NCBI GenBank assembly: GCA_012841635.1
Contig: DUUJ01000023.1
Location: 1-49,222, forward strand
Reading direction: 5' to 3'
Length of the DNA: 49,222 nt
Origin: Clostridiales bacterium
GTDB taxonomy: Bacteria; Bacillota; Clostridia; Oscillospirales; CAG-272
Position numbers and translations under genes: made by a program. How positions within the stretch are numbered: position 1 is the first letter of the stretch; the number at the start of each line of letters is the position of its first letter. Under the pieces are notes generated by a model, which ran no database searches, had not been told where the DNA came from, and was given only the letters and a program-made list of their open reading frames with translations. This document shows positions 15,645-38,955 of the stretch, piece after piece.

Positions 15645-15673
15645 TTGAAAAAAACCGACGAAATGATTATAAT
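15645..15673 (+). promoter_or_regulatory. Predicted SigA promoter for the XpaC/TelA/TPM operon
   Basis: TTGAAA (15645-15650) - 17 nt - TATAAT (15668-15673). Confidence 0.65.
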
Positions 15674-15692
15674 ATATATAGAAGCAATAATA

Positions 15693-16727
15693 ATGAGAGA
15701 GGCAAAGACATTGTCAAACAGCAACGACCAGAAAAACAACGGCTCGCTGCATCTTCCCGGTATCGATATAGACGGCAAAAAGGTCAGGGTCGGCGGGCTT
15801 AACATTAACGACAAGCGTATCCAAATAGGAAACGCGGTAGACATAGACGGCGATAACGAGGTCATCAGACTCGGTTCTCTTGTTGTAGACGGAAAAAACA
15901 ACAGGGTTTTTACGATTAAAAAAGATCCGCCGCTTCCACAGAAGCCGCAGCAGCAGCAACAGAAGCCGCCGCAGTCGTTCTCCCGGCCGAGTACCCCTAT
16001 ATATGCATCCGGAAAGCAAGGCGCTTATTCCCCTCCCCCGCAGAAACAGCCGGAACCGAATCCGCCCGCTGTTCAAAATGAAGCCGACGGCCGTGAATAC
16101 AAGCTGATTCCCTCCCCGTGGCCGTTTGTCTTCTGCGGAGGTTTCTGGGTTTTATACGCGCTGTTCTTTCCGCTTTATGCCTGGTTTCATATAATCATCT
16201 GCGGCTTGTTTTCGTTTGGCGTATATAAAATATTCAGCAAAATATTCCCGCCGAAAAAAGTTGAAGTAATAAAGCCTTATGTACCGCCGCAGAGCACCGA
16301 CGAGGCATTTAATCAAACCATCTCAACGACGACAAAGCTGCTTGAATCGATTGGCGAATCATCAAAACAGATAGCGCCGAAATGCCCCTCTCTCGCGTCA
16401 AACGCCGATTCTCTCATAAAACGGACAAAAATGATTCTTGAATATCTCGCGGAAAACCCGCACAAAGCTTCTCTTGTCCGCCGGCTTTTCAACTATTATC
16501 TGCCTACCCTCGACAAGCTTCTCAAGAGCTGGCTGCTTTTTGACGAACACGGCGAAGGCGACGGAGAATGGGCAGGCAAGCCGGAAATCGAAGAAGCGGT
16601 CGCGGAAATGGAAAATGTTTTCCGCAAGCAGCACGACAAGCTGATTAACGACGCCGCGCTCGATATTTCCGCCGAAATCGACGTCCTCGAAAAAATGCTT
16701 GACGATCAGATTTCCCAAAACAATTAA
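15693..16727 (+). CDS. XpaC-like (5-bromo-4-chloroindolyl phosphate hydrolysis family) membrane protein; alternative TTG start at 15711
   Basis: N-terminal short repeats (IDIDGKKVRVGGLNI, IDGDNEVIRLGSLVVDG), Pro/Gln-rich linker, two TM segments, then an XpaC-like helical C-terminus. The ORF-track start at 15645 coincides with the -35 box, so it is moved downstream. Confidence 0.65.
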   Translation: MREAKTLSNSNDQKNNGSLHLPGIDIDGKKVRVGGLNINDKRIQIGNAVDIDGDNEVIRLGSLVVDGKNNRVFTIKKDPPLPQKPQQQQQKPPQSFSRPSTPIYASGKQGAYSPPPQKQPEPNPPAVQNEADGREYKLIPSPWPFVFCGGFWVLYALFFPLYAWFHIIICGLFSFGVYKIFSKIFPPKKVEVIKPYVPPQSTDEAFNQTISTTTKLLESIGESSKQIAPKCPSLASNADSLIKRTKMILEYLAENPHKASLVRRLFNYYLPTLDKLLKSWLLFDEHGEGDGEWAGKPEIEEAVAEMENVFRKQHDKLINDAALDISAEIDVLEKMLDDQISQNN

Positions 16728-16772
16728 TAACACCAATAACAACCCACATACAGACCAATAAAGAGGTAAAAA

Positions 16773-17996
16773 ATGTCCGAGAACAACAATCTCAACCCCA
16801 ACTCGATCGATCTTTCCGCCGTATCCGCAAGCGCTTCGATGCCCGAGCTGACTTTAAAAACCGGTACCGCCGAGGAAAATATCGCGCCTGCGCCTCAGCT
16901 TACACAGACGGCTCAGCAGGCCGCCGTCGACACATCTCTCGACGAGTCCAAGCTTTCGCCCGAAGAACAGAAGCTTGTAACTGATTTTTCAAAGAAGATA
17001 GACCTCAGCGACTCCACCATGGTAATGACATACGGCGGAACCGCTCAGCACAAGGTCGCAGAATTCAGCGACTCCGCGCTTTCCACCGTCCGCACAAAAG
17101 ACTTGGGCGATACCGGAGAAATGATCCTCGATCTCGTCGGTCAGCTGCGCTCCTTCTCTGCCGTGGAAGACGACAATAAGCCTTTCAAATGGTTCCGCCG
17201 TCAGGCAGACAAACTCGCCGACATGAAGAACAGGTATGACAAAGTCGAAGTATCGGTTGACAAGATAGCCACCGAACTTGAAAATCATCAGGTCCAGCTG
17301 CTCAAAGACATTTCGATAATGGATAAACTCTATCAGGTCAATCTTACAAACTTCAAGGAGCTGACCCTTTATATAATCGCCGGAAACAAAGCCCTCAATT
17401 CCGCCAGAACCACAAAGCTCAAGGAGCTCACCGAAAAGGCTCACAAGACGGGGCTTCCGGAAGACGCTCAGGCGGCAAACGACTACGCTCAGCTCTGTGA
17501 CCGCTTCGAGAAGAAGCTGCACGACCTTGAGCTTACAAGGATGGTCGCGATACAGTCGGCTCCGCAGATCCGGCTGATCCAGAACAACGATACCATAATG
17601 ACGGAAAAGATTCAGACGACCATTATGAACACCATCCCGCTCTGGAAATCCCAGATGCTGATCGCATTGGGGCTTCAGCACAGCCAGCAGGCGCTCGCCG
17701 CTCAGAAAGCCGTCACCGACACGACAAACCAGCTTCTAAAAAAGAATGCCGATTTGCTCAAAACCGGAACCATCGCGGTGGCTAAAGAAGCCGAGCGCGG
17801 TATCGTAGATATCGAAACGCTGAATTACACCAATCAGCAGCTTATATCGACTCTTGACGAGGTTCTGAAGATACAGAACGAAGGCAGAGCGAAACGCCGC
17901 AGCGCCGAAACCGAACTGAGACGGATAGAAGGCGAGCTCAAAAACAAACTGCTCGACATACAGACCTATCAGAGCAGCGATGCGGCTCAGCAATAA
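16773..17996 (+). CDS. Toxic anion resistance protein, TelA/KlaA family
   Basis: Conserved TelA pattern: MVMTYGGTAQHKVAEFSDSAL, WFRRQADKLADMKNRYDKVEVSVDKIATELENHQVQLLKDI, YIIAGNKAL, IPLWKSQMLIALGL. Confidence 0.92.
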   Translation: MSENNNLNPNSIDLSAVSASASMPELTLKTGTAEENIAPAPQLTQTAQQAAVDTSLDESKLSPEEQKLVTDFSKKIDLSDSTMVMTYGGTAQHKVAEFSDSALSTVRTKDLGDTGEMILDLVGQLRSFSAVEDDNKPFKWFRRQADKLADMKNRYDKVEVSVDKIATELENHQVQLLKDISIMDKLYQVNLTNFKELTLYIIAGNKALNSARTTKLKELTEKAHKTGLPEDAQAANDYAQLCDRFEKKLHDLELTRMVAIQSAPQIRLIQNNDTIMTEKIQTTIMNTIPLWKSQMLIALGLQHSQQALAAQKAVTDTTNQLLKKNADLLKTGTIAVAKEAERGIVDIETLNYTNQQLISTLDEVLKIQNEGRAKRRSAETELRRIEGELKNKLLDIQTYQSSDAAQQ

Positions 17997-18016
17997 TTTA
18001 AAAGGAATCTTATTAA

Positions 18017-18580
18017 ATGATAAAACGTTTGTCAGAAATAAACCTCAGCCGCGGCGCGGGAATCGCGATAATGATCGCGCTGATAATCCTTTCCCTGCTG
18101 CTCGGTTGTCTTCGCTCGCTGCTGCCGGAATATCTTAAGGTAAAAAAAGCGTTTAATAACGGCGCTTACGGCGACGGTTTTTCGATCTCGGCCGACCTTT
18201 CGAAATTAGGCGAAAGCGCCTGGAACATGGCGGCTCTGGCGGAGCAGGCGATCGGAGAAACCGACAATGTAAAGAAGGTAAAGCAGGCACGCAGGGCGCT
18301 TGACGATGCAAAAAACATCAAAGACAAGCACACCGCATATACGGCGCTGACATACGCATCCGAAAAGTTATACGCCGAAGCGGCTGATGACGAGCGGCTG
18401 AGCGAAACTCAGGCAAAGCTGATCAAACAATGCTATACCGATATTCACAGCCGGATACTGACCATCAAAGGCGACGAATACAACGAGATGGCTGCGGATT
18501 ACAACAAAAAGGTATCCGGATTCCCCGCCCGCTATATCGGCTTGCTGGTGGGGGTAAGAGAAGCCGAACTGTTTGAATGA
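18017..18580 (+). CDS. Small membrane-anchored protein, possibly LemA-like helical domain
   Basis: One N-terminal TM helix then an alpha-helical region ending with YNKKVSGFPARYIGLLVG. Overlaps the next CDS by 4 bp. Confidence 0.6.
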   Translation: MIKRLSEINLSRGAGIAIMIALIILSLLLGCLRSLLPEYLKVKKAFNNGAYGDGFSISADLSKLGESAWNMAALAEQAIGETDNVKKVKQARRALDDAKNIKDKHTAYTALTYASEKLYAEAADDERLSETQAKLIKQCYTDIHSRILTIKGDEYNEMAADYNKKVSGFPARYIGLLVGVREAELFE

Positions 18581-19635
18581 CGAGAAAATCAAAAGGCAGA
18601 TTGTCGATATTTGCCGTTTTCCTGATACTGCTTACGGTTTTAGCGGCACCTGCTGCCGCTTTTTCCGTTCCCGAAAAGCCGGATAACAGCGCCGTTTACG
18701 ACGACACCGGACTGATATCCGCCGAGACCCGGGAATATCTGATTGCTCTGAACGATATGCTGTATGAAAACTGCCGCGGTCAGACGGTCATAGCCATGTT
18801 TACCGGGATCGGCGGAGAGGATATCGCGGAGTATGCAAAGCAGTGCTTCAACGAATGGGGAGTCGGCGAGAGCGAATACAACAGGGGCGTTCTGTTCCTG
18901 ATGAGCGCCGCCGAAGACGACTACTGGGCGGTACAGGGCAAGGGGCTGGAAGACAGTCTGACATCCGGCGAGATCGGCACCATCCTTGACGAATCCGTCG
19001 AATCTTATTTCGCCGCGAAGGATTACGACGGCGCGGCGAAGGCTTTTGCAGAAGCCGTATATAAAAAGCTCGCCGGGATATACGGTTTTTCCGGCAAGCT
19101 GCCGAATGAACCGGCGTATTCCGGAAAAACAAAGCTGACAGAAACCGCCGCGGAAGAATATTTTTCCGGAACTCCGGAGAACGAATACGGCTATACCTTC
19201 GCCGACCGGGTACGGGATTTTTTCAATAATATCTTCTCGGCGTTATTCAATTTTGCCGGTATATTTTTTATAATCATTGCAATTATTGCTTTCATAATTA
19301 TTCTTTCCTCCTGCAACTGCGGCTGTTGTGATCTATGCAGATGCTGCGGCTGCTGCAGAAACGACTTCGGAGGAGGCGGTTACGGAGGAAGTAATTTCGG
19401 AGGAAGCAGCTTCGGAGGAAGCAGCTTCCGCGGAAACAGCTACCGCGGCTCTTCCGTCGGAGGCTCCAGTTTCGGCGGCAGCCGACGTCCGACAGGCGGC
19501 AGTTCTTCCGGCGGCTCCGGTCGTTCTTTCGGAGGTTCACGTGGCAGCAGCGGGGGCAGCCGAAGCAGCAGCCGAAGCGGCGGTTTCGGCGGAGGTTCTA
19601 CCCGAGGGGGCGGAGCCGGCCGCGGAAGGAGATAA
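18577..19635 (+). CDS. TPM-domain (YgcG family) membrane protein with Cys cluster and Gly/Ser-rich C-terminus
   Basis: Signal peptide; VYDDTGLISAETREYLIALND...GGEDIAEYAKQCFNEWGVG...NRGVLFLMSAAEDDYWAVQGKGLED (TPM domain); TM; CNCGCCDLCRCCGCC; GGSSFGGSSF-rich tail. Confidence 0.85.
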   Translation: MTRKSKGRLSIFAVFLILLTVLAAPAAAFSVPEKPDNSAVYDDTGLISAETREYLIALNDMLYENCRGQTVIAMFTGIGGEDIAEYAKQCFNEWGVGESEYNRGVLFLMSAAEDDYWAVQGKGLEDSLTSGEIGTILDESVESYFAAKDYDGAAKAFAEAVYKKLAGIYGFSGKLPNEPAYSGKTKLTETAAEEYFSGTPENEYGYTFADRVRDFFNNIFSALFNFAGIFFIIIAIIAFIIILSSCNCGCCDLCRCCGCCRNDFGGGGYGGSNFGGSSFGGSSFRGNSYRGSSVGGSSFGGSRRPTGGSSSGGSGRSFGGSRGSSGGSRSSSRSGGFGGGSTRGGGAGRGRR

Positions 19636-24694: not shown

Positions 24695-25801
24695 TTGGAT
24701 CGTCCGGATACCAACATATACGAATATAAATGTCCGAATTGCGGCGGAGCGGTGGAATTTGACAGCACGATACAGAAGCTGAAATGCCCCTACTGCGACA
24801 CCGAGTTCGACATCGAAACGCTCAGAAACCATGATGCTCAGCTGGCAAACGAGCTGCCTGATCAGATGAGCTGGATCGGCTCGCGGGACAACGAATGGCG
24901 GGAAGGCGAAGTTGAAGGGATGCGGGTCTATATCTGCAATTCCTGCGCCGGCGAAATAATCGGCGACGCCAACACCGGAGCTTCCTCCTGCCCTTACTGC
25001 GGCAACCATGCGATAATGATGACGAATTTTACCGGCGCTCTCCGCCCCGATTATGTCATCCCCTTCAAGCTGGACAAGAATGCCGCAAAAGCGAACCTGC
25101 TTAAATTCTATAAAGGCAAAACCCTGCTGCCGAAGATATTCAAGGACGCGAACCATATCGATGAAATCAAGGGCATTTATGTTCCCTTCTGGCTCTTCAA
25201 CGCCGATGTATACGCTGACATAAAATATAAGGGAACAAAGACCAGAAGCTGGTATTCGGGCGGCGAAGACTGGACATCAACCGAATATTTCTCCCTCGAC
25301 CGCACGGGAACCGTCTCCTATGACTGCGTTCCGGTGGACGGTTCAAAAAAGATGGCGGATGACCTGATGGAGTCACTCGAGCCGTATGATTTCAATGAAG
25401 CCGTCGATTTTAACACCGCTTATCTCTCCGGCTTTTTCGCCGACAAATATGACGTTACCGCCGACGAAAGCATAGATCGTGCTAACGAGCGAATCAAAAA
25501 AAGCACCGAAGACGCCTTTAAAACCACTACCGGAGACTACGGCGGGGTCGTTGTCGAAAGCTCCCATGTTCAGTTTGAAAACGGCACCTATCATTATGCG
25601 CTCTACCCAGTCTGGCTGCTTAACACAAACTATAACGGCAAGCGATATACCTTTGCGATGAACGGTCAGACCGGCAAATTCGTCGGCGACGACCTGCCGG
25701 TCGACCGGGGCAAATACCTTGCTTATCTTTTCGGTCTTGCCATGGCCTGGGGGGTGGGCATCTTCGCCGTCCTCTCGCTGCTTGTCAAATTCGTACTTTA
25801 A
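24695..25801 (+). CDS. Zinc-ribbon membrane protein (two CxxC-CxxC ribbons, C-terminal TM), TTG start
   Basis: CPNCGG...CPYCDT and CNSCAG...CPYCGN; C-terminal hydrophobic segment. Confidence 0.8.
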   Translation: MDRPDTNIYEYKCPNCGGAVEFDSTIQKLKCPYCDTEFDIETLRNHDAQLANELPDQMSWIGSRDNEWREGEVEGMRVYICNSCAGEIIGDANTGASSCPYCGNHAIMMTNFTGALRPDYVIPFKLDKNAAKANLLKFYKGKTLLPKIFKDANHIDEIKGIYVPFWLFNADVYADIKYKGTKTRSWYSGGEDWTSTEYFSLDRTGTVSYDCVPVDGSKKMADDLMESLEPYDFNEAVDFNTAYLSGFFADKYDVTADESIDRANERIKKSTEDAFKTTTGDYGGVVVESSHVQFENGTYHYALYPVWLLNTNYNGKRYTFAMNGQTGKFVGDDLPVDRGKYLAYLFGLAMAWGVGIFAVLSLLVKFVL

Positions 25802-25814
25802 GGAGGCGGCCGAG

Positions 25815-27080
25815 ATGAAAATAAATAATAAAAAAGTAACGGCGATCGCCGCGCTGACTCTGATTTCGGTATTCCTGATTGCGATTGTCATATCCGCCGC
25901 AGCGCCCGCTTTTGCAGCCGGAAAGCAGTATGTATTCGCGTCGAGCGATCAGTACTTCACCGAGGAAAGCATGGCCGCGCTTGACGCTCAGGCTCAGTCG
26001 GTATATGACAGATTCGGCATCGAATGCTACTTCGATATATCCGAAGTAAGTCTCGAAGAAACCGACGGCTACGCAAAAAGCGTGTTTGCTTCCCGCGGCG
26101 GCAGCGATCCGGGCATGATAATGGTCGTAACCGCCGACCATGTGATAACCTGGGTCAGCCAAACCATCGCGCCGGAATTCACCGACGAGGATATGGAGGC
26201 TTTGCATAATGCTTACGACAAGCCTGAGACATATTACGACGCGGTTGCGGCGGTATTTTCGGAATTTGAAAGAATACTTACGGAGCGCGGCTTTGCCCGG
26301 ACCGGCAGCTCAGCCGCTCCCGAAACAAGGTTGATCCCCGAAGACAGACAGCGCCCTCTGCTCGTCGATGATGCCGGAATTCTCTCGAACACCGAACGCA
26401 CCGAAGTCGAAGCAAGGCTCAATGAGCTCAGCCGGAAGCACAGCTTCGACATCGCCGTTGTAACGGTGGATTCGCACGATTACTACGGCGTAACCGACTA
26501 CGCCGACGACTTTTACGACTACAACGGTTACGGCCAAGGTGATGACAACAGCGGAATAATGTTTCTGATTGCGATGGATACCAGGGAGTGGCATATCACG
26601 ACTACCGGCAAGGGAATACCGTATTTTACCGACGCAGGTCAGGAATACATCATGGACAAGGTAGTTCCTTATCTTTCGAGCGGAAATTACGGCGGCGCCT
26701 TCCTTGAGTTTGCAAATATCTGCGACGAGTTTCTTGCGCAGGCAGAAACCGGCGATCCTTATGATATTCATAACCTTCCCCGCCCGACTCTCAGCTGGAA
26801 GTATCTGCCCGTCTGCCTGCTGATCGGTTTCCTTCCCTCCTTCGGAATCACCAAGGGCATGAAAAATCAGCTGAAGACCCGGCGTTTTCAGTCGAGGGCA
26901 AATCAATACCAGCGTAAAGACAGCTTCAACCTCTATAACGCTAATGACACCTTCCTCTATCGCCGTGTGACTCATGTGCCCCGCGTCGAATCATCAAGCA
27001 GCGGCAGCAGCAGAGGAGGCTCATCGACTCACACCAGCAGCTCCGGCACCAGCCACGGCGGATCGAGCGGCCGTTTCTGA
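25815..27080 (+). CDS. TPM-domain protein, apparently with two tandem TPM-like modules, TM and Ser/Gly-rich tail
   Basis: Signal peptide after ATG at 25815 (AGGAGG upstream); second module LLVDDAGILSNTERTEVEARLNELSRKHSFDIAVVTVDS...SGIMFLIAMDTREWHITTTGKG; first module is a divergent version. Confidence 0.8.
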   Translation: MKINNKKVTAIAALTLISVFLIAIVISAAAPAFAAGKQYVFASSDQYFTEESMAALDAQAQSVYDRFGIECYFDISEVSLEETDGYAKSVFASRGGSDPGMIMVVTADHVITWVSQTIAPEFTDEDMEALHNAYDKPETYYDAVAAVFSEFERILTERGFARTGSSAAPETRLIPEDRQRPLLVDDAGILSNTERTEVEARLNELSRKHSFDIAVVTVDSHDYYGVTDYADDFYDYNGYGQGDDNSGIMFLIAMDTREWHITTTGKGIPYFTDAGQEYIMDKVVPYLSSGNYGGAFLEFANICDEFLAQAETGDPYDIHNLPRPTLSWKYLPVCLLIGFLPSFGITKGMKNQLKTRRFQSRANQYQRKDSFNLYNANDTFLYRRVTHVPRVESSSSGSSRGGSSTHTSSSGTSHGGSSGRF

Positions 27081-27099
27081 CAACATTACGGACATGCAT

Positions 27100-27128
27100 A
27101 AAGGCGCCGCTCGGCGCCTTTGTTTTGG
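27100..27128 (+). terminator. Rho-independent terminator
   Basis: aaaggcgcc-gctc-ggcgccttt followed by gtttt. Confidence 0.75.
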
Positions 27129-27173
27129 AAAACATATCATCTGCGCTTATTTTGACGGAAGAAGGGAATTATT

Positions 27174-27980
27174 ATGACGCCTATTGACGATATATTGAAA
27201 AAAGCCGGTAAAGCCATAAGAAATACGGCTAAAGAAGCGGCCGACACCGCCGGTTCCGCGCTTAAAGAGAACATCGGCAAAGCGGGGAAACAGCTTTCGG
27301 ATAAAGCTGTAAATACCGCCGCCGATAAAGCAAAAGAGGCGGCTGAGACAGCGGAAAACAAACTTAAAGAAGTCGTAAGAGCGCGGAGACCCGGCTTAAA
27401 AGATTTCCCCCGCCCGAAAGATTCTCAAAAGCAGGAAGAACCGGCAGAACAGCCACAAGCGCCGGTTAAACAGAAGGAAGCTTCCGCAGTCGATGAAATA
27501 CAAAACTCGGACAGTTCGTTTACATATGTGTTCAGCGCCCTTCCTCAAAACCGCGCCGAGCTTGAAGGGCTTTCGATAGCCGACCTCAGCTCCCCCTTCC
27601 GCTGCGCGGCGCTGACCGTCGCCGCTCTCTGCCGGTACAGGGACTCAAAAGACGACTGCCACGAAATGCTCGGAGCGCTGAAGGGCTCCGCTTACACTCC
27701 GTTTGAGCGGCAGTTCCTACGCGACAGGCTTTCGGGAAAGGAATCAATTCCCTTCTCTTATTTTGCCGGTTCGGCTACCGGGAACGGCTACGCGCCGACT
27801 CAGCCTTATACTCTGACGGTAACTGCCGGAGCTGCGGCTTATAACCGGGACGGTTATGCGACGCTTGAGCTTATCTCCTCCGGCTCCGATTCGCCGAAGC
27901 GGATAACGCTTATCCGAAACGGTGACAAATGGCAGCTCTATGATCAGGCGCTGCTCGGAATGATAAAATCTCCGCAATAA
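27174..27980 (+). CDS. Hypothetical protein: N-terminal amphipathic LEA/apolipoprotein-like repeats plus a conserved-looking C-terminal domain
   Basis: KKAGKAIRNTAKEAADTAGSALKENIGKAGKQLSDKAVNTAADKAKEAAETAENKLKE repeats; C-terminal FRCAALTVAALCRYRDSKDDCHEMLGALKG region. Family not identified with certainty. Confidence 0.65.
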   Translation: MTPIDDILKKAGKAIRNTAKEAADTAGSALKENIGKAGKQLSDKAVNTAADKAKEAAETAENKLKEVVRARRPGLKDFPRPKDSQKQEEPAEQPQAPVKQKEASAVDEIQNSDSSFTYVFSALPQNRAELEGLSIADLSSPFRCAALTVAALCRYRDSKDDCHEMLGALKGSAYTPFERQFLRDRLSGKESIPFSYFAGSATGNGYAPTQPYTLTVTAGAAAYNRDGYATLELISSGSDSPKRITLIRNGDKWQLYDQALLGMIKSPQ

Positions 27981-27986
27981 ACGGAA

Positions 27987-28026
27987 CCGGCAGCGGGAAA
28001 ATTTCCCGCTGCCGGAGATTTTTTTA
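27987..28026 (+). terminator. Strong Rho-independent terminator ending the plus-strand cluster
   Basis: ccggcagcgggaaa-a-tttcccgctgccgg (14-bp arms) followed by agattttttt. Confidence 0.85.
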
Positions 28027-30888
28027 ATTTAAATTATCTTTGCTCTGATGATAGACGTTTGATATCAGCTTGAATATCTCATACACCAGCATCAGCACTG
28101 CCGGAGGCAGGAGCGCGCAGAGCCAGCCTACCGGCGGCAGCGGCACTATTCCGAATGGAGAACCGAGCGGGGTAAGCATCGCAAGCGCCACGAAAGCAGC
28201 TATTGCGAGAAAGAAACCGCCGTTGATAAAGTTGAATTTCACGCTCGGCATGAATATGCTCTTGTCCTTCATCGTCTCGTTCATCGCAATCAGCTGAGAC
28301 ATTATGAATCCGAGAAAGACGGCGCAGCCGGTCTGAGAGGATGAGAGAGAGGTGAAGAGCGCGGTGGAATTTGCCAAATACGGCGCGGCTATCGCGCAAG
28401 CCGCCCAGAAAAGACCGAACGCAAGGCAGGTCATATTATGGGCAAAAGGTTTTTTCAGCCGCTCGTCGGTGTTTTCCCGGCTTTTAAGTATATCGTATTC
28501 CGGCCGCTCGAATGCAATTATCAGAACCGCCGCAAAGTCAACAATCAGTCCGGTGAAGATTATCTGGGTCGGCGTCATCATCTCGTAGCGGATTATGACC
28601 GAATAGAGCACTATAAAGAGCCTTGACAGCTGCGAGGTTATCAGATACTGCACCATCCGGAGGATGTTTTTATAAATTACCTTCGCCGTGGATATCGCGC
28701 CGACAAGGGCGTTGAAGGCACCGCGGCCGTCGGTGTCTCCATCCGAGACTATGACGTCGGAGATAAATTTCAGCGCTTCGCAGCCGGCTTTGCGGCTGTC
28801 GCCTGCCGCCTTTACCGGCGGCTTATTTTTTGAAAAGAAACGGGATTTCCGCGATTCCATCGAAATGGTGCTGCTGCGGCAGGCGCTTACTCCCGACTGA
28901 CGCATAACGCCGGTTTCGTCAAGGTCCTGACCGAGATAAAGCACATTGTCTCCCTCTTCTTTGAGAAAGTTTACAAGTTTATACTTCTGGTCGACGCGCA
29001 GGCCTTCGTAGACCCGATATGTGTGGATATTTGTCCTGAGCATGCCGTCTGAGAGCCTGTCCATCTGCTTTGAGGAAATGATGTCGGTCGAGTTATTGGC
29101 GACGCCGACGGTTTTTGCAAGCTGGAGGTTGTTTTCCGAGCTGTCGTCGCAGAGCATTATAACCCGGATTCCGGCGTCGGCAAGTCTTGACATATTCTTT
29201 GCAGCTCCCGGCAGCAAAGGCTCGCGGATAGCTAAATATCCTTCAAAATTGAGGTCGTTCTGCAGCTTTTCGATACGGGTAAGGTCGGTATCGGCGGTAG
29301 TTTTCGACGCTATGCCGACGACCCGGTAAGCAGCGCGGCTGCGGGACAGAGCCGAGATTCTGATTTCATTCAAAGCCGCCATATCAAGCGGCACCCTCAC
29401 TCCGTTGAGCGAATAGGTTCGGCAGCGGGCGAGAACGGCGGAAAGCTCGCCTCTCAGTATAACCAGATAATCTTCGCCGGCTTCGTGCGCCCTCGCGTCG
29501 TCCGAAATGCCGTCTATACCGTTTCCTAAATAATCAATGGCGAAGTTGCCGACAAGAGAGGTTTCAAAGCGAGAGCTGCCGCTCGCCTTCATATGGTCGA
29601 GGATCGGGTAATCGCGGTCAAGAGCGACGTTATAAAGCTTCATCTTTTCGGCGGAGGAAATTATCGCTTCTTCTTCTCCGCGATAAGCCGGGGAAACGTC
29701 TCCCGAAGCGGCTTTTTCGGCGCCGAGTTTGTTTCTTCCGTAAAGCGCCGTTGAAACTACCGCGAATTTCATCAGCATCGCGCATCTTTTTTCGAAATGA
29801 GGGAGATCGCGGGTATATTCCATGCCTCCGCTGAATGCGGCTTCGACCGACTGTTCGTTCAGCGTCAGTATCCCTTCCTTAGGGATTATGATTGTGTTTA
29901 TATCTTTAAGCTTCTCGAGCGAGCCGACGTTGCGGATAAGCGCCCCGGTGTTCGGCGCGTCGAATTGATGAACGGCGTTGTAAATGCCGCTGGCGATGAT
30001 GATATATCCGAAAGCGGTGTACAGCTCCGACATCGAAGCGACGGCAAGCGAAAGCCCGGTAAGGAAAACGTCGAAAAATCCCCGCGTCCGCAGTCCGGTG
30101 ACCGCGCCTGTGACGGTCAGGAGAAAGACGAGTATTATCATGCAGAGGCTCCACATCGAGCAATAGCTGCGAAGCGTGGTTATTACCGGCAGCGATTCGT
30201 GGCGGGTCAAAGTCTCGGCTTTTCCCTCGCGGCAGACGAGCTGATCCTCGCCGCTGGCAACTACGATGGCTTTTCCGGTTCCGCGGGTGAGAATCGTCGA
30301 AGCGAAAAGCATATTCTTTCGGTCTTTGACCTCTATTTCGCGGAATTCCCGGAAGGAGGCGTCCTTTTTCTGCGCTCTCGGAATCCCTGTCAGCGGGGCT
30401 TCAAAGGCATAGAGATCCTTTGCTTCCAAAAGACGGCAGTCGGCGGGGACAACATCCCCGGCGGCGACAAAAATGACATCCCCGGCAACAAGCTGCTCGG
30501 AGCGTATCGTATAAAGCACTCCTTCCCGCAGCACCCTAGCGACGGGAAGAGCGCCGGAAGCCGTGTCTTCCAGCACATGCTGAGCCTTGATATATATAAT
30601 TATCGAAGCTATGTAGTTCAGAACGAGTACGCAGATGAGCGCAATGGCGGCCGCGCTGCGCTCAAGCGACGCCTGAATAAGCGCCGTGAGCAGCAGCAGA
30701 ATCGACATGCTGTCGGTCATCACGTGTCCCAGATAGGCTTTAAACGCGCCTTTCGGCACCGGGTATATGATATTCGGGCCGTTCGTTTTCAGCCTCCGCT
30801 CGGCTTCCTCCCGGCTGAGACCATTTTCAATGTCGGCGCTCAACCGTTCGGCGATCTGCTCCGGCGTATGGTCATACCATTTATCCAT
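28024..30888 (-). CDS. P-type ATPase homologue with degenerate catalytic motifs (predicted pseudoenzyme)
   Basis: Overall P-type layout: N-terminal cation-ATPase domain (HTPEQIAERLSADIENGLSREEAERRLKTNGPNII), actuator (LVAGDVIFVAAGDVVPADCRLLEAKDL), C-terminal TM bundle. DKTGTLT is replaced by PKEGILT, TGE(S) by TGI(P), TGDGVND by LGQDLDE. Confidence 0.85.
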   Translation of the reverse strand: MDKWYDHTPEQIAERLSADIENGLSREEAERRLKTNGPNIIYPVPKGAFKAYLGHVMTDSMSILLLLTALIQASLERSAAAIALICVLVLNYIASIIIYIKAQHVLEDTASGALPVARVLREGVLYTIRSEQLVAGDVIFVAAGDVVPADCRLLEAKDLYAFEAPLTGIPRAQKKDASFREFREIEVKDRKNMLFASTILTRGTGKAIVVASGEDQLVCREGKAETLTRHESLPVITTLRSYCSMWSLCMIILVFLLTVTGAVTGLRTRGFFDVFLTGLSLAVASMSELYTAFGYIIIASGIYNAVHQFDAPNTGALIRNVGSLEKLKDINTIIIPKEGILTLNEQSVEAAFSGGMEYTRDLPHFEKRCAMLMKFAVVSTALYGRNKLGAEKAASGDVSPAYRGEEEAIISSAEKMKLYNVALDRDYPILDHMKASGSSRFETSLVGNFAIDYLGNGIDGISDDARAHEAGEDYLVILRGELSAVLARCRTYSLNGVRVPLDMAALNEIRISALSRSRAAYRVVGIASKTTADTDLTRIEKLQNDLNFEGYLAIREPLLPGAAKNMSRLADAGIRVIMLCDDSSENNLQLAKTVGVANNSTDIISSKQMDRLSDGMLRTNIHTYRVYEGLRVDQKYKLVNFLKEEGDNVLYLGQDLDETGVMRQSGVSACRSSTISMESRKSRFFSKNKPPVKAAGDSRKAGCEALKFISDVIVSDGDTDGRGAFNALVGAISTAKVIYKNILRMVQYLITSQLSRLFIVLYSVIIRYEMMTPTQIIFTGLIVDFAAVLIIAFERPEYDILKSRENTDERLKKPFAHNMTCLAFGLFWAACAIAAPYLANSTALFTSLSSSQTGCAVFLGFIMSQLIAMNETMKDKSIFMPSVKFNFINGGFFLAIAAFVALAMLTPLGSPFGIVPLPPVGWLCALLPPAVLMLVYEIFKLISNVYHQSKDNLN

Positions 30889-30902
30889 TAGTTAAAACAG
30901 GG

Positions 30903-30937
30903 GGTTGCCCTATCCGGTAATGCCGGAGGGGGCAACC
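30903..30937 (-). terminator. Hairpin between clpE-like and P-type ATPase homologue genes
   Basis: Minus strand GGTTGCCC...CCGGCATTACCGG...GGGCAACC followed by CCCTGTTTT. Confidence 0.45.
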
Positions 30938-30988
30938 GAGTCCTCCGGCTTTAAGACGATTCCTATATTTATTAATGTCAGCGAAAGG

Positions 30989-33385: not shown

Positions 33386-34123
33386 TTAACTTATATTATA
33401 CAGCGCGAGGAGCTTATCCGCCGCGCCGGAATAAATATTGTGATTGAGCAAAAATTGTGTTATATATGAGCTTTCAAGCTGCCCCGGATAGAAAATATCC
33501 GGCTGCATCGCGCAGAAGGCAGGCCAGGCTTTCCAGAGTATCACCACGAACAGCGATACGAGAAGATAGCTCCATAATACTCCGAAGCAGGCGCCCAAAA
33601 TGCGGTTTACAACTCCCAGCGGAGTCGCGTTTACCGCGCGGTTGAGCTGTTTGAATATCAGCTTGGTTATGAGCATAACAAGCAAAAAGATTATCAGGTA
33701 TGAGACGGCGTTTGAAAGCATTTCGGCTATCGGATCGGCTATCGCGTCTCTCACCAGAATTTTTGCCGTTTCGGTTCCCAAACCGTCAAGCGCGCCGTAA
33801 TACTCTTCAAGCGCGGCTGCATCCGCGCCGAAACGGCTGAGTAAATCCATAAAAACATCGGGTTTTTCTTCGAAAAGCTTTGCAAGGCCGGTATCACCGC
33901 TGAAAAGTCCGACTGCGGCGGTTTCAACCGCTGCCGAAACCCGATCAAGCATAAAACCGTCATAAAGCAATGCCGACAAAACGGGGGTCAGGAGCAATGC
34001 GGCTGCAAAGGCGGCAAGCAGGGAGAATATCCAGGAAACGGAGCCGATAAAGCCTTTTATAATCCCGTATATCACGGCAAAGATAAATATCAGGGCTATG
34101 ATAAGGTCTATTGCAGCTGCCAT
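33386..34123 (-). CDS. CvpA family membrane protein
   Basis: AAAIDLIIALIFIFAVIYGIIKGFIGSVSWIFSLLAAF and LGVVNRILGACFGVLWSYLLVSL pattern of CvpA-type proteins. Confidence 0.8.
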   Translation of the reverse strand: MAAAIDLIIALIFIFAVIYGIIKGFIGSVSWIFSLLAAFAAALLLTPVLSALLYDGFMLDRVSAAVETAAVGLFSGDTGLAKLFEEKPDVFMDLLSRFGADAAALEEYYGALDGLGTETAKILVRDAIADPIAEMLSNAVSYLIIFLLVMLITKLIFKQLNRAVNATPLGVVNRILGACFGVLWSYLLVSLFVVILWKAWPAFCAMQPDIFYPGQLESSYITQFLLNHNIYSGAADKLLALYNIS

Positions 34124-35562
34124 CAGATGTCATCCTCCGCCCAGGTTTCCTCTTCATAAGGCTGATCTTCCGGGACGGCGTCCGGATCTCCCTCGGGGGT
34201 ATATATAAGCTCTTCGGTCGATCCCGGCTCGGCTTCATAAAGATCTTCCTTTGACGGTTCAGGCGCCGAAGGTTGGGCTGCAGCTGTCGTTTCGGGAACT
34301 GCGGCGCCGACTTCCGGGAAAAGCTCCTCGGGACGGTACATCTTGACCCGCTGGGAATATGCCACTATAAGGGTCAGCGCGTCCTTTCTGAGCATCCTTT
34401 TTCCGCCGCTTTCGATTTCTGCCTCGGATATGCCGCCGTCGGCTGTCCTTATCCGGATGATCTTCGAATCGAAAAGGGCGTATATCCTGTCTTCATATGA
34501 GACTAGATCGAGTATCTGACCGTCAAGGCTGACTTCGCTGAGTTTGTTTCCCTCGCGGTCGAGCATCACTACAAGCTCTCCCGAGCCGATGATGTTCTGC
34601 GAGAAGACCACGTCGGCTCCGCGGGGGGTGAGGGCGCAGCGCTGCGGTACCTTTCCTTCAAAATTATACGTTGATACAAGCTCGAAATTCCTGTCGTAAA
34701 AGTGAAGAGCGGAGTCGGTCAGAACGACGAGGCCTCCGCCGTCGAGCCAGCCGACGCGGCAGCCCATTTCTCCCTGCAGTGTCTGCACGCTGAGCGGCGT
34801 TTCCGAGCGTGGATCGAAGATCATCAGCTCGGTCATGAAGCCGCCGTTTTCGTTGTAAACTGAGAGCATCGCAACCCGGCTGTCGTCGCGGAAAACCGTG
34901 TCCATGACCAGCTTGTCTTTATATATAACCGAAATTTTGCGGAAGCTCGAATCATATATTGTGACCGCAGATCGGTACTCCATCGTATTTGACACTATAG
35001 CGAACAGATTGTCGGATATCGAAGCGCCCCAGATAGGGTATTCGAGCGTTTCGCTGTATATCTTGGAAAAAGCGTTGGATACGGTAAATGTGTTTTCCCC
35101 CAGACCGTATACCAGCATATATCTGTCGGAAGTGAGCAGCATCGGAGTCTGCATATTGATCGAATAGGTCAAAGTCGAGTTGCCGAGCATATTATACAGC
35201 GTGACGGATTTTTCGTCGACAACCGCGAGTTCGCCCTTATAGGAGCCGACCTGAAGCTTGTCCGACTGGTTAAAGTAGATCGTTCTGTATCTTCCGGTAT
35301 ATTCCGGGCTGTCGGTGTTGAGGTAGCGCATCATATACTGGAGGTTTTCGAGCGTCAGATCGCTGTGATACTCAAAGATCATAACGACCAAAAAGATGAT
35401 GAGAGCGGTGAGCAGAAGATACCTTGCGAGTTTGATTCTGAACGCTATCGCGCCCCAATAGGACGAATAGTTGTCGCTTCTGCGCATAAAGCGCGACGGT
35501 ATGCGCGGGAATTTAATATGCGGTTTGGCCGGCTTCGTTCCGGCGGTTTTTTCTTCGGCCAT
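34123..35562 (-). CDS. Membrane-anchored beta-propeller-like protein (DUF5711-like)
   Basis: One TM helix followed by repeating beta-rich blades (LQVGSYKGELAVVDEKSVTLYNMLG..., GCRVGWLDGGGLVVLTDSALHFYD...) and an acidic/Pro tail. Confidence 0.6.
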   Translation of the reverse strand: MAEEKTAGTKPAKPHIKFPRIPSRFMRRSDNYSSYWGAIAFRIKLARYLLLTALIIFLVVMIFEYHSDLTLENLQYMMRYLNTDSPEYTGRYRTIYFNQSDKLQVGSYKGELAVVDEKSVTLYNMLGNSTLTYSINMQTPMLLTSDRYMLVYGLGENTFTVSNAFSKIYSETLEYPIWGASISDNLFAIVSNTMEYRSAVTIYDSSFRKISVIYKDKLVMDTVFRDDSRVAMLSVYNENGGFMTELMIFDPRSETPLSVQTLQGEMGCRVGWLDGGGLVVLTDSALHFYDRNFELVSTYNFEGKVPQRCALTPRGADVVFSQNIIGSGELVVMLDREGNKLSEVSLDGQILDLVSYEDRIYALFDSKIIRIRTADGGISEAEIESGGKRMLRKDALTLIVAYSQRVKMYRPEELFPEVGAAVPETTAAAQPSAPEPSKEDLYEAEPGSTEELIYTPEGDPDAVPEDQPYEEETWAEDDI

Positions 35563-35589: not shown

Positions 35590-36363
35590 TTATCGTTTCA
35601 GTTTGGCGAATCCTTCGAGATAGCCGACTTCGATCAGGTAAAGTCCTTCCGGCGGAGCCGTCATTCCGGCTCTGTTTCTGTCGCCGGACGCGATTATCGC
35701 CGGCAGTTCCGACGGGTCTATCTTGCCGTAAGATGCCATTGCCAGTGTTCCGGCGATTATCCTGACCATGTTGTAAAGAAATCCGTCGGCTCTTATTGTC
35801 ATTGAGACGAAGCCGTTTTCGCGGCGGACGGAGATGTCGGCGACCGTTCTTGTTGTATCTTCGATCTTGCCGCCTGTCGACATGAAAGCAGAGAAATCAT
35901 GAGTTCCCAGAAACGCCTTTGACGCCGCATCCATGGCGGCTTCGTCGAGCGGGCGGTGAAAATGCCAGCAGCGCTTATCCATGAACGGGTCGCGGTGGAC
36001 GGTATCTTCAAAAATGTATTTATATTCTTTATAAACCGCGTCGTATCTCGGATGAAAGGGGAGAGGGACATGTTCCGCCTTTATCACGGCGCAGTCATAC
36101 GGCAGCTTAAGATTCAGCGCCAGCGGCAGTCTTTCGAGCGGGATTTCCGGCGAATCTTCGGGCAGAACATACGCCGCGCGGAAAGCCTTTGCGTGAACGC
36201 CGGCATCGGTGCGGCTGCAGCCTGTCAGCGCATAGCGCTCGCCGTAAACGGCTTCGATCGCGTCCTGAACCGTCGCCTGAACCGTCCTCAGTCCGTCCCC
36301 CTGAACCTGCCAGCCGCAAAATTCGGTTCCGACATAGGAAATGGTCAGCAGCAACTTTTTCAT
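35590..36363 (-). CDS. truA: tRNA pseudouridine(38-40) synthase TruA
   Basis: ISYVGTEFCGWQVQ, ALTGCSRTDAGVHAKAF, RAYKEYKYIF-like region and DGFLYNMVRIIAGTL. Confidence 0.95.
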   Translation of the reverse strand: MKKLLLTISYVGTEFCGWQVQGDGLRTVQATVQDAIEAVYGERYALTGCSRTDAGVHAKAFRAAYVLPEDSPEIPLERLPLALNLKLPYDCAVIKAEHVPLPFHPRYDAVYKEYKYIFEDTVHRDPFMDKRCWHFHRPLDEAAMDAASKAFLGTHDFSAFMSTGGKIEDTTRTVADISVRRENGFVSMTIRADGFLYNMVRIIAGTLAMASYGKIDPSELPAIIASGDRNRAGMTAPPEGLYLIEVGYLEGFAKLKR

Positions 36364-37181
36364 ATCGAAAATCCGGGGGCGAATATGTTGAGCAATATTA
36401 TACCCGCGATGAAAATCATGAAAATCAGCACCATCAGCCAGTCAAGCGGCTTCATATGCAGCTCGGTCATCCTTGTCCGTCCGACGTCTCCGCGGTAGCA
36501 GCGGCACTCCATCGCGACGGCGAGATCGTCGGCGCGGCGGAAAGCCGAAACGAAGAGCGGTATCATGACAGGTATCAGCGCTTTTGCACGGTTAACCAGG
36601 CTCCCCTGCGAAAAATCCGCCCCTCTGGCTTTCTGCGCCGACATTATTTTATCGGTTTCTTCGATCAGGGTCGGGATAAACCGGAGGGCGATGGTCATCA
36701 TCATCGAAAACTCATGAACCGGCATTCTCAGCTTTTTTAAAGGACCCAGCAGCCGCTCGAGGCCGTCCGTCAGGGCGATAGGCGACGTGGTATATGTGAG
36801 TACCACTCCGGTGCCGGCGAGCAGGGCGATAATCCGGATTATCATCAGCCCGGCGAATTTCAGTCCTTCCGGGTAAACGCGGATGATACCGAATTCAAAA
36901 AGCGGGGTTTCCCCTTTTGTCCAGAAGATATTGATGACCGCCGTGAACGCAACGACATAGATAACCGGCTTCATGCCCTTAAGAATGATCCTGAGCGGGA
37001 TTTTACATAAAACGATCAAAAACAGGGTAAACAGCACGACGAAAAGGAACGCAAATACGTTTTTTGCCGTGAAGATGCCGATAATATACAAGAGGGTAAG
37101 GATTATCTTTGCCCGGGGGTCGGTTTTATGCAGCGGCGAGTCGCCGGGGAAAAACTGACCGAGAGTAATTTCTTTCAGCAT
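36360..37181 (-). CDS. ecfT: Energy-coupling factor transporter transmembrane protein EcfT
   Basis: QFFPGDSPLHKTDPRAKI; Ala-Arg-Gly motif AQKARGADF; between ecfA2 and truA. Confidence 0.94.
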   Translation of the reverse strand: MLKEITLGQFFPGDSPLHKTDPRAKIILTLLYIIGIFTAKNVFAFLFVVLFTLFLIVLCKIPLRIILKGMKPVIYVVAFTAVINIFWTKGETPLFEFGIIRVYPEGLKFAGLMIIRIIALLAGTGVVLTYTTSPIALTDGLERLLGPLKKLRMPVHEFSMMMTIALRFIPTLIEETDKIMSAQKARGADFSQGSLVNRAKALIPVMIPLFVSAFRRADDLAVAMECRCYRGDVGRTRMTELHMKPLDWLMVLIFMIFIAGIILLNIFAPGFSI

Positions 37182-38059
37182 ATCGCTTCTCCCCTCGTCC
37201 CGGTTTTTGCAAGGCCCAATTTAGCTGCTATCGCTTCACAGGCCGCGTCGACGGTGAAGATATCCCCTTCGAGAACGACGCCGTTTGCGCGAAGCAGGTT
37301 TACCAGTCTTGTTATCTGCGGCACGTCAAGCCCGACTTTTACAAGGGTTTCCGCCTGACGGAAGATCTCGGCGGTAGTTCCGGTCATAAATATTTCCGCG
37401 CCGTTCATGACGACAAGCTCGTCGCTGTATCTCGCCATATCCTCCATCGAGTGGCTGACGATTATGACCGTCTTTTGGCGCTCTTTCTGATAGCGGCGGA
37501 CTCCGCCGAAGATTTCCTCCCGCCCGACGGGGTCGAGGCCGGCGGCCGGCTCGTCTAAAACCAAAATCTCCGGATCCATCGCAAGTATCCCGGCTATCGC
37601 GACGCGGCGCTTTTCTCCGCCGGAAAGCTCAAACGGGCTTTTATTCAGCATAGACGGCGCAAGACCGACAAAATCCGCCGCTTCATGAACTTTAAAAGCG
37701 ACTTCCGCTTCGGAAAGCCCGCGATTGCGCGGACCGAATGCGATATCCCGGCTGACGGTTTCTTCAAAGAGCTGATATTCGGGGTATTGAAAGCAAAGAC
37801 CTACCCGGAATCTGACATCCCGGATCTTTTTCGGCTCCGCCCAGATATCCTTGCCGTCGAGGGCAACGATGCCGGAAGTCGGCTTCAAAAGTCCGTTCAG
37901 CAGCTGAACCAGGGTCGACTTGCCGGAACCTGTATGGCCGATCAGTCCGGTTATCACGCCCGGACGGAATTTAATGTTGACGCCGTCGAGAGCCTTTTTT
38001 TCGAAAGGAGTGCCGGCGCTGTATATATAGCTTACGTTTGTAAGAGTTAATTCAGACAT
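37175..38059 (-). CDS. ecfA2: Energy-coupling factor transporter ATPase EcfA2
   Basis: GLIGHTGSGKSTLVQLLNGLLKPTSG, FQYPEYQLFEETV, LSGGEKRRVAIAG, LVLDEPAAGLDP. Confidence 0.94.
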   Translation of the reverse strand: MSELTLTNVSYIYSAGTPFEKKALDGVNIKFRPGVITGLIGHTGSGKSTLVQLLNGLLKPTSGIVALDGKDIWAEPKKIRDVRFRVGLCFQYPEYQLFEETVSRDIAFGPRNRGLSEAEVAFKVHEAADFVGLAPSMLNKSPFELSGGEKRRVAIAGILAMDPEILVLDEPAAGLDPVGREEIFGGVRRYQKERQKTVIIVSHSMEDMARYSDELVVMNGAEIFMTGTTAEIFRQAETLVKVGLDVPQITRLVNLLRANGVVLEGDIFTVDAACEAIAAKLGLAKTGTRGEAIC

Positions 38060-38085
38060 TTAATTTTAAAATGCGGTTCTGCCGC

Positions 38086-38955
38086 TTATACTTTCAAAAG
38101 GGGAAGCATCGCCTCCGCTGCCGCCTCCGGACTTAACGCATCGCCGGAAACCGGGCAGCCGAGTTTTTTCAGCCGCCAGATAAGGTCGGTTACCTGAGGC
38201 ACGTCAAGACCGACGCTTTTCAGCTTTTCCACCTGCGAAAACACTTCGGCGGGAGTGCCGTCCATATAAACTTCGCCGTCGTTTATCACTATTACCCGAT
38301 CGGCTTCGATGGCTTCGCTCATGTTGTGGGTTATGTGCAGCACGGTGATGCCGTAATCGTGATTCAGGGAGGATATCGTTCTCATGACTTCGTCCCTGCC
38401 GGCGGGGTCGAGCATCGCGGTCGATTCGTCGAAAATAATAGTGTCGGGAAGCATGGCTATTATTCCGGCGATCGCGACGCGCTGTTTCTGTCCGCCGGAG
38501 AGCTGATGCGGTTCATGGCGGGCAAATTCCGTCATTCCAACCGTTTCGAGGGCGTCGTCAACCCTCTTTCGTATCTCTTTCGGCGGAATGCCTAAGTTTT
38601 CACAGCCGAATGCGATATCTTCCTCGACTATCGTCGCAACGAGCTGGTTGTCCGGGTTCTGGAAAACCATTCCGACATGGCGGCGGATATCGAAAACATC
38701 GTCTTCGGTCATGTCCTTTGAGGTTATGTCTTTGCCGTCAATAATAATTGTCCCCGAATCGGGCGCGAGTATCATGTTAAGCAGCTTTGCAAGCGTCGAT
38801 TTGCCGGAACCGTTATGGCCGAGAACGGCGACGAAATCCCCTTTGTTTATATCGAGGGAAACGTTCTTCAGCGCGCTCAGCCGCACGCCGTCTTCGATTT
38901 CGTATGAGAAGCTGACGTTGCGCAGGCTTATATAGGGTGTTGTATTGTCATTCAT
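38086..38955 (-). CDS. ecfA1: Energy-coupling factor transporter ATPase EcfA1
   Basis: VLGHNGSGKSTLAKLLN, FQNPDNQLVATIVEEDIAFG, LSGGQKQRVAIAG, IIFDESTAMLDP. Confidence 0.94.
   Translation of the reverse strand: MNDNTTPYISLRNVSFSYEIEDGVRLSALKNVSLDINKGDFVAVLGHNGSGKSTLAKLLNMILAPDSGTIIIDGKDITSKDMTEDDVFDIRRHVGMVFQNPDNQLVATIVEEDIAFGCENLGIPPKEIRKRVDDALETVGMTEFARHEPHQLSGGQKQRVAIAGIIAMLPDTIIFDESTAMLDPAGRDEVMRTISSLNHDYGITVLHITHNMSEAIEADRVIVINDGEVYMDGTPAEVFSQVEKLKSVGLDVPQVTDLIWRLKKLGCPVSGDALSPEAAAEAMLPLLKV

Follow-up and report, generated by a model that had tools for sequence, protein, structure and literature searches.

A conserved clade of pseudo-P-type ATPases encoded beside clpE in a family of Clostridia, a possible membrane partner of the ClpE unfoldase

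The window analysed here is a stretch of 49,222 nucleotides of contig DUUJ01000023.1 (assembly GCA_012841635.1) from a Clostridiales bacterium of the family CAG-272. On its minus strand, directly behind clpE, lies an intact open reading frame of 954 codons, with an ATG start and a TAA stop, which codes for a relative of the P2A-type ATPases (Table 1). The hairpin just past its stop codon is the probable end of the transcription unit.

Table 1 Features of the clpE/pseudo-ATPase locus, in positions of the window.
Feature	Positions	Strand	Evidence
Terminator-like hairpin, 13-bp stem, just past the pseudo-ATPase stop	27987..28015	.	
Pseudo-P2A-type ATPase, 954 aa	28024..30888	minus	Pfam, alignments, AF2 model, Foldseek
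M6 Asp784, at the SERCA D800 position	28537..28539	minus	alignment
M5 Arg756, at the SERCA E771 position	28621..28623	minus	alignment
Degenerate hinge LGQDLDE for TGDGVND	28915..28935	minus	alignments
Degenerate phosphorylation motif PKEGILT for DKTGTLT; catalytic Asp is Pro336	29863..29883	minus	DNA, alignments
M4 SMSELY for AIPEGL; Pro lost, Glu E288 kept	30019..30036 (derived from residue numbers)	minus	alignments
Degenerate actuator motif LTGIPR for LTGES; residues 166-171	30376..30393 (derived from residue numbers)	minus	alignments
clpE, directly upstream of the pseudo-ATPase; Zn ribbon, two intact Walker A motifs, GF-type ClpP loop	30989..33307	minus	
CvpA-like (Colicin_V) membrane protein, conserved upstream block	33386..34123	minus	
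DUF5711 protein, conserved upstream block	34123..35562	minus	
TruA-type tRNA pseudouridine synthase, conserved upstream block	35590..36363	minus	
ECF transporter module, CbiQ/EcfT-like protein and two ABC ATPases, conserved upstream block	36360..38955	minus	

In fold and domain order, the encoded protein is a P-type ATPase of P2A (SERCA/SPCA/LMCA1-like) type, as a preliminary description had read from the 954-aa frame and its transmembrane layout; Pfam, AlphaFold2 (AF2) and Foldseek together support this arrangement of A domain, split P/N domain and membrane helices. The Pfam domains Cation_ATPase_N, E1-E2_ATPase and Cation_ATPase_C score above their gathering scores and the P-domain (Hydrolase) below its cut-off, while the nearest NCBIfam models, of PMR1/SPCA, Mg2+ and SERCA type, all remain far below theirs. 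In a sequence search, the closest PDB relatives are LMCA1, then MgtA-type, SPCA1, Na,K-ATPase and SERCA. The AF2 model, built from 31 sequences, can be called confident (pLDDT 84, pTM 0.83), with poor prediction at the N-domain loops 385-401 and 452-470 and in the stretch 677-702. Its best 50 Foldseek matches are P-type pumps only, SERCA, SPCA1 and Na,K-ATPase being found at E values of about 1e-42 to 1e-45; SERCA and SPCA1 in E1-like states come closest (TMq 0.72-0.76), ahead of E2 states (about 0.51-0.54). A role in anti-phage defence was rejected, since PADLOC gave no match for the protein.

When aligned to Listeria LMCA1, PKEGILT stands at DKTGTLT, LTGIPR at LTGESE, LGQDLDE at TGDGVND, and SMSELY in the AIPEAL stretch, so that the four motif readings given before (PKEGILT, TGIP, LGQDLDE and SELY) were right. 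A true DKTGT elsewhere in the 954-aa protein, which would have spoken against them, is absent, and the N-domain KGA lysine, for ATP, is also lost (RGE). Copies from three genomes of the same genus, at 96, 94 and 69% identity, read PKEGI, PKEGI and PKDGF, respectively, and are all open end to end. Because these independent genomes share the same or similar substitutions, chance and sequencing or assembly error are excluded, and because all the copies are open, so is a frameshift, in agreement with the earlier claim. A Post-Albers cycle is impossible without the phospho-acceptor Asp, the glutamate of TGES and the GDGxND hinge, all of which the protein has lost.

Many other genera of the same bacterial family have copies at 22-45% identity. 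In a profile search, about 99 of 198 sampled family genomes (a count of result rows) exceed the scores that canonical pumps reach; orthologues whose substitutions are the same or equivalent, which the preliminary description had proposed to look for, thus occur in about half of the sampled genomes. These genomes are largely metagenome assemblies, that of the window being 73% complete. We extracted 69 distinct proteins of this clade and 63 canonical relatives and placed them in one alignment. The catalytic Asp is present in all 63 controls and missing from 68 of the 69 clade members, where the column contains Pro (40), Ser (5), Phe (4), Leu (4), Glu (3), His, Arg, Gly and Ala (2 each), and Asp, Tyr, Ile, Val and Cys (1 each). 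The glutamate of TGE is found in 11/68 members, compared to 63/63 controls, and the KGA lysine column is Arg in 46/68 members and Lys in 62/63 controls. GDGxND occurs in none of the 69, whereas the hinge Asp is kept in all of the canonical proteins. The sole Asp-bearing member, L034 (DREGALT, TGEA, hinge lost), looks like an intermediate. The status of the family as a conserved dead pump is well supported.

Clade members range widely, from L034, in which Asp and TGE are still held, to proteins whose N domain is gone. L213 (2333-4387; 684 aa) has lost its N domain, L217 (2316-4421; 701 aa) is barely recognisable as P-type at 28 bits, and L205, L209, L218 and L220 are far more eroded versions in other genera of the family; all six lie directly behind clpE. 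Together, the eroded versions are a graded decay series of one scaffold. One set of members (L056, L057, L059 and L199) and, besides it, L036 carry C-terminal extensions of 150-300 aa past the last membrane helix, acidic and apparently disordered by eye, which gave no functional clue.

A tree calculated without the motif columns separates 27 sampled members from 28 canonical pumps by one branch (SH-aLRT 100), which disfavours independent origins across many lineages. It is consistent with a single origin of the clade rather than proof of it, because it was computed quickly under LG+G4, contains some long branches and is rooted at its midpoint rather than by an inferred root. Searches of the order and class gave only canonical DKTGT/TGES/GDGVND pumps among the best 20 matches inspected outside the family, a search that degenerate pumps unlike the profile would escape. 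As far as tested, the clade is confined to this bacterial family. Spread by plasmids was rejected, as the best matches had 22-24% identity and were annotated as ordinary P-type ATPases. We found no published description of the family in the open-access literature, the range of our search.

Selection on the gene was estimated by the Nei-Gojobori method (NG86), by comparing the window gene with its 96, 94 and 69% relatives. The dN/dS values are 0.042, 0.052 and 0.142, respectively, the last being rough because dS to the 69% relative is near saturation; those of clpE for the same comparisons are 0.047, 0.051 and 0.113. The pseudo-ATPase values are below those of TruA and CvpA, and most other neighbours are higher as well. 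The two closer within-genus values are far from the value near 1 that the preliminary description had named as contrary evidence, and they lead us to reject a recent pseudogene. Its wording "rather than recent decay" holds for the clade, but in some other genera of the family the gene is strongly eroded or missing. The fold, the actuator core and the membrane domain are still under strong purifying selection. Nearly every member, in dozens of genera, has an open frame, and several conserved residues are specific to the clade: R/K756, G780, A196, G629 and a GGFNA stretch. Conservation of the actuator core (residues 121-150) has a mean of 0.64, compared to 0.66 in canonical pumps, whereas the phosphorylation-site region, at 0.57 in canonical pumps, has 0.37 in the clade, and the hinge region about 0.39 where canonical pumps have 0.71-0.83. 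Judged from the alignment, constraint has left the P-domain and now rests on the actuator core and on a charge cluster in the membrane formed by the M4 Glu, the M5 Arg/Lys and the M6 Asp.

This cluster lies at the former ion site. We take Arg756, Asp784 and E288 to be equivalent to E771, D800 and E309 of SERCA, respectively. At the positions of the Ca2+ ligands, the M6 Asp is kept in 69/69 members and the M4 Glu in 65/69, whereas the residue equivalent to E771, mostly Glu in canonical pumps, is Arg in 62 members and Lys in 7, 67/69 members have Gly for the M6 Asn, and hardly any retain the M4 Pro. The strongly eroded L205, L209 and L218 still have the M5 Arg/Lys and the M6 Asp. The three charged residues probably form an internal salt bridge that takes the place of the ion and keeps its former site locked, and not a site for transport.

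The most constant feature of the clade is its neighbour. clpE is found on the same strand and directly upstream in all 66 loci with enough contig, and a ClpE cut by the contig end makes it 67 of 67; two further loci without ClpE begin at contig edges. The neighbourhood with clpE that had been suggested from the window alone is therefore absolute where the contig allows. The gap between the two genes has a median of 22 nt, lies between -20 and +50 in 48 of the 66 loci, and is a 4-nt overlap in six. Further upstream, the order CvpA, DUF5711, TruA, EcfT-like protein, two ABC ATPases and methyltransferase is widely conserved; genes 3' of the pseudo-ATPase are conserved within the genus only. Genera that lack the pseudo-ATPase have no constant gene in its place behind clpE; unrelated genes stand there, such as those for a HAD hydrolase, a ParA-type ATPase or a solute-binding protein. 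Some genera of the family keep clpE with the pseudo-ATPase missing or heavily eroded, and ClpE is therefore not dependent on it everywhere. The catalytic motifs of ClpE are intact, and ClpP and CtsR are encoded in all eight genomes checked.

Several other features surround the operon. At 24695-27980, and convergent with the pseudo-ATPase, lie zinc-ribbon, TPM-domain and DUF6935 genes, which are conserved in the closest two genomes only. A cluster of XpaC-like (Halogen_Hydrol), TelA, LemA and TPM-domain genes lies about 8-12 kb off, at 15645-19635; the association with XpaC/TelA that had been suggested together with that of ClpE was not seen within 8-9 kb in other genera. No match to a CtsR-like operator was found upstream of the window clpE, the number of matches in the window being no better than chance. 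In the window genome (G000), CtsR itself matches on contigs C62 and C84 at nearly the same positions, perhaps as strain variants or through assembly duplication. The 100-nt gap between clpE and the pseudo-ATPase (30889-30988, minus strand) contains inverted repeats, and a strong RNA hairpin (z -2.4) is predicted there immediately ahead of the start codon, as a possible translational control element; L031 and L032 have inverted repeats of differing sequence.

Among known proteins, the P2A-type Ca2+ ATPases (LMCA1 lmo0841, SPCA1 and SERCA) share with the clade the domain order, the helix layout, the predicted fold, the actuator core GDVI..AGD.VP.D.R, the M4 Glu and the M6 Asp. They differ from it in that the clade is without the Asp, TGES and GDGxND, has mostly Arg for the KGA Lys and Arg/Lys at the E771 position, and has nearly always lost the M4 Pro. 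The nearest conceptual case is TMEM94/ERMA, a P-type fold without TGES and with GSSANL for GDGVND (PMC13322241). However, this eukaryotic ER protein keeps the Asp, as DKQGI (PMC13322241), and has no known link to ClpE, whereas the Asp is Pro in the window protein. Its ATPase activity is disputed (PMC12134183). PfGC-beta likewise contains a degenerate P-type-like domain from which most signature residues are missing (PMC6592433), but this domain is P4-like, eukaryotic and part of a guanylate cyclase. Adaptors of Clp unfoldases, such as MecA and McsA/McsB for ClpC, resemble the pseudo-ATPase as partner genes of an unfoldase, clpC often adjoining mcsA/mcsB (PMC13125188); they are not P-type-ATPase-like, and the likeness lies in the gene neighbourhood.

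The scaffold probably now has a new function other than pumping. The pseudoenzyme reading of the preliminary description holds, and we refine its proposed "sensor, scaffold or partner subunit" to a putative ClpE-linked membrane partner. The reading that we prefer, with chances that we regard as even, is that this catalytically dead relative of P2A pumps hydrolyses no ATP and serves the AAA+ unfoldase ClpE as a partner in the membrane, a partnership that we infer from synteny alone. A more specific version, which we put forward tentatively and with slightly less confidence, is that the family gave up pumping to become a membrane receptor or adaptor of the ClpE-ClpP protease. The cytosolic head (A, P and N domains) would dock ClpE or present clients, which might be membrane or misfolded proteins, and the membrane domain would anchor ClpE-ClpP at the membrane or report the state of the membrane. 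In a published study, Enterococcus ClpE-ClpP worked without an adaptor, although the study did not exclude adaptors, and clpE is usually monocistronic (PMC13125188). Against this background the operon described here is unusual, and the same findings speak most strongly against an obligatory role of the pseudo-ATPase.

Two alternatives, both of which we consider unlikely, deserve weight. The protein could be a passive ion or pH sensor, a gated leak or a receptor, in which a cation or proton at the M4 Glu or M6 Asp shifts its shape without ATP, ClpE being a mere operon neighbour. Retention of these two residues despite the loss of catalysis fits such a sensor, as does the pairing of M5 Arg and M6 Asp, which resembles the arrangement in P3A proton pumps. 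Against it, the other SERCA-site ligands are replaced (N796 by Gly, E771 by Arg/Lys, N768 by Gln, with P308 lost), an Arg in the ion site disfavours cation binding, and the linkage to clpE is absolute. The conserved gene order may also reflect co-expression alone. The pseudo-ATPase would be a co-regulated passenger, kept there for shared expression while its membrane role is unrelated, or else ClpE would have it as a regulated substrate. This would agree with conservation of the whole ECF-TruA-DUF5711-CvpA-ClpE-pseudo-ATPase block, whose other genes have no evident common pathway. It agrees less well with a pseudo-ATPase that keeps its place beside clpE in particular, in some loci so closely that start and stop codons overlap, while the genes after it are not conserved beyond the genus.

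A regulatory subunit that pairs with an active P2A paralogue seems improbable. Many genomes of the family do encode a DKTGT-bearing P2A pump, and in genome G010 (L035, 5385-11115) such a canonical pump adjoins the pseudo-ATPase, convergent and tail to tail; this adjacency was seen in one genome only, however, and the window genome (73% complete) has no other P-type match at E<=0.001. Even less probable is that the protein still pumps in a non-canonical way, which has been claimed of mammalian ERMA/TMEM94. Transport has been reported for ERMA although it is without TGES and GDGVND (PMC13322241), and L034 retains the Asp; yet ERMA keeps and needs this residue, D427N abolishing uptake (PMC13322241), whereas the clade has lost it in 68/69 members, mostly to Pro, and a second group saw no ATPase activity of TMEM94 (PMC12134183). 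A decaying pseudogene, to which the short or barely recognisable L213 and L217 might point, is hardly credible in view of dN/dS values of 0.04-0.05, open frames across dozens of genera and shared clade-specific residues.

Dead kinases, proteases and rhomboids are well-known regulators. Dead P-type pumps, to our knowledge, have hardly been described, and the one much-discussed case, TMEM94, is contested. If the partnership with ClpE is true, this would be, as far as we know, the first such bacterial pseudo-pump and the first membrane partner of ClpE. The clade provides a large set of bacterial dead pumps with intermediates, always tied to one partner gene. It makes testable how a P-type scaffold can be used without ATP, and whether a membrane-bound partner exists in these gut bacteria for ClpE, which has so far been described as independent of adaptors.
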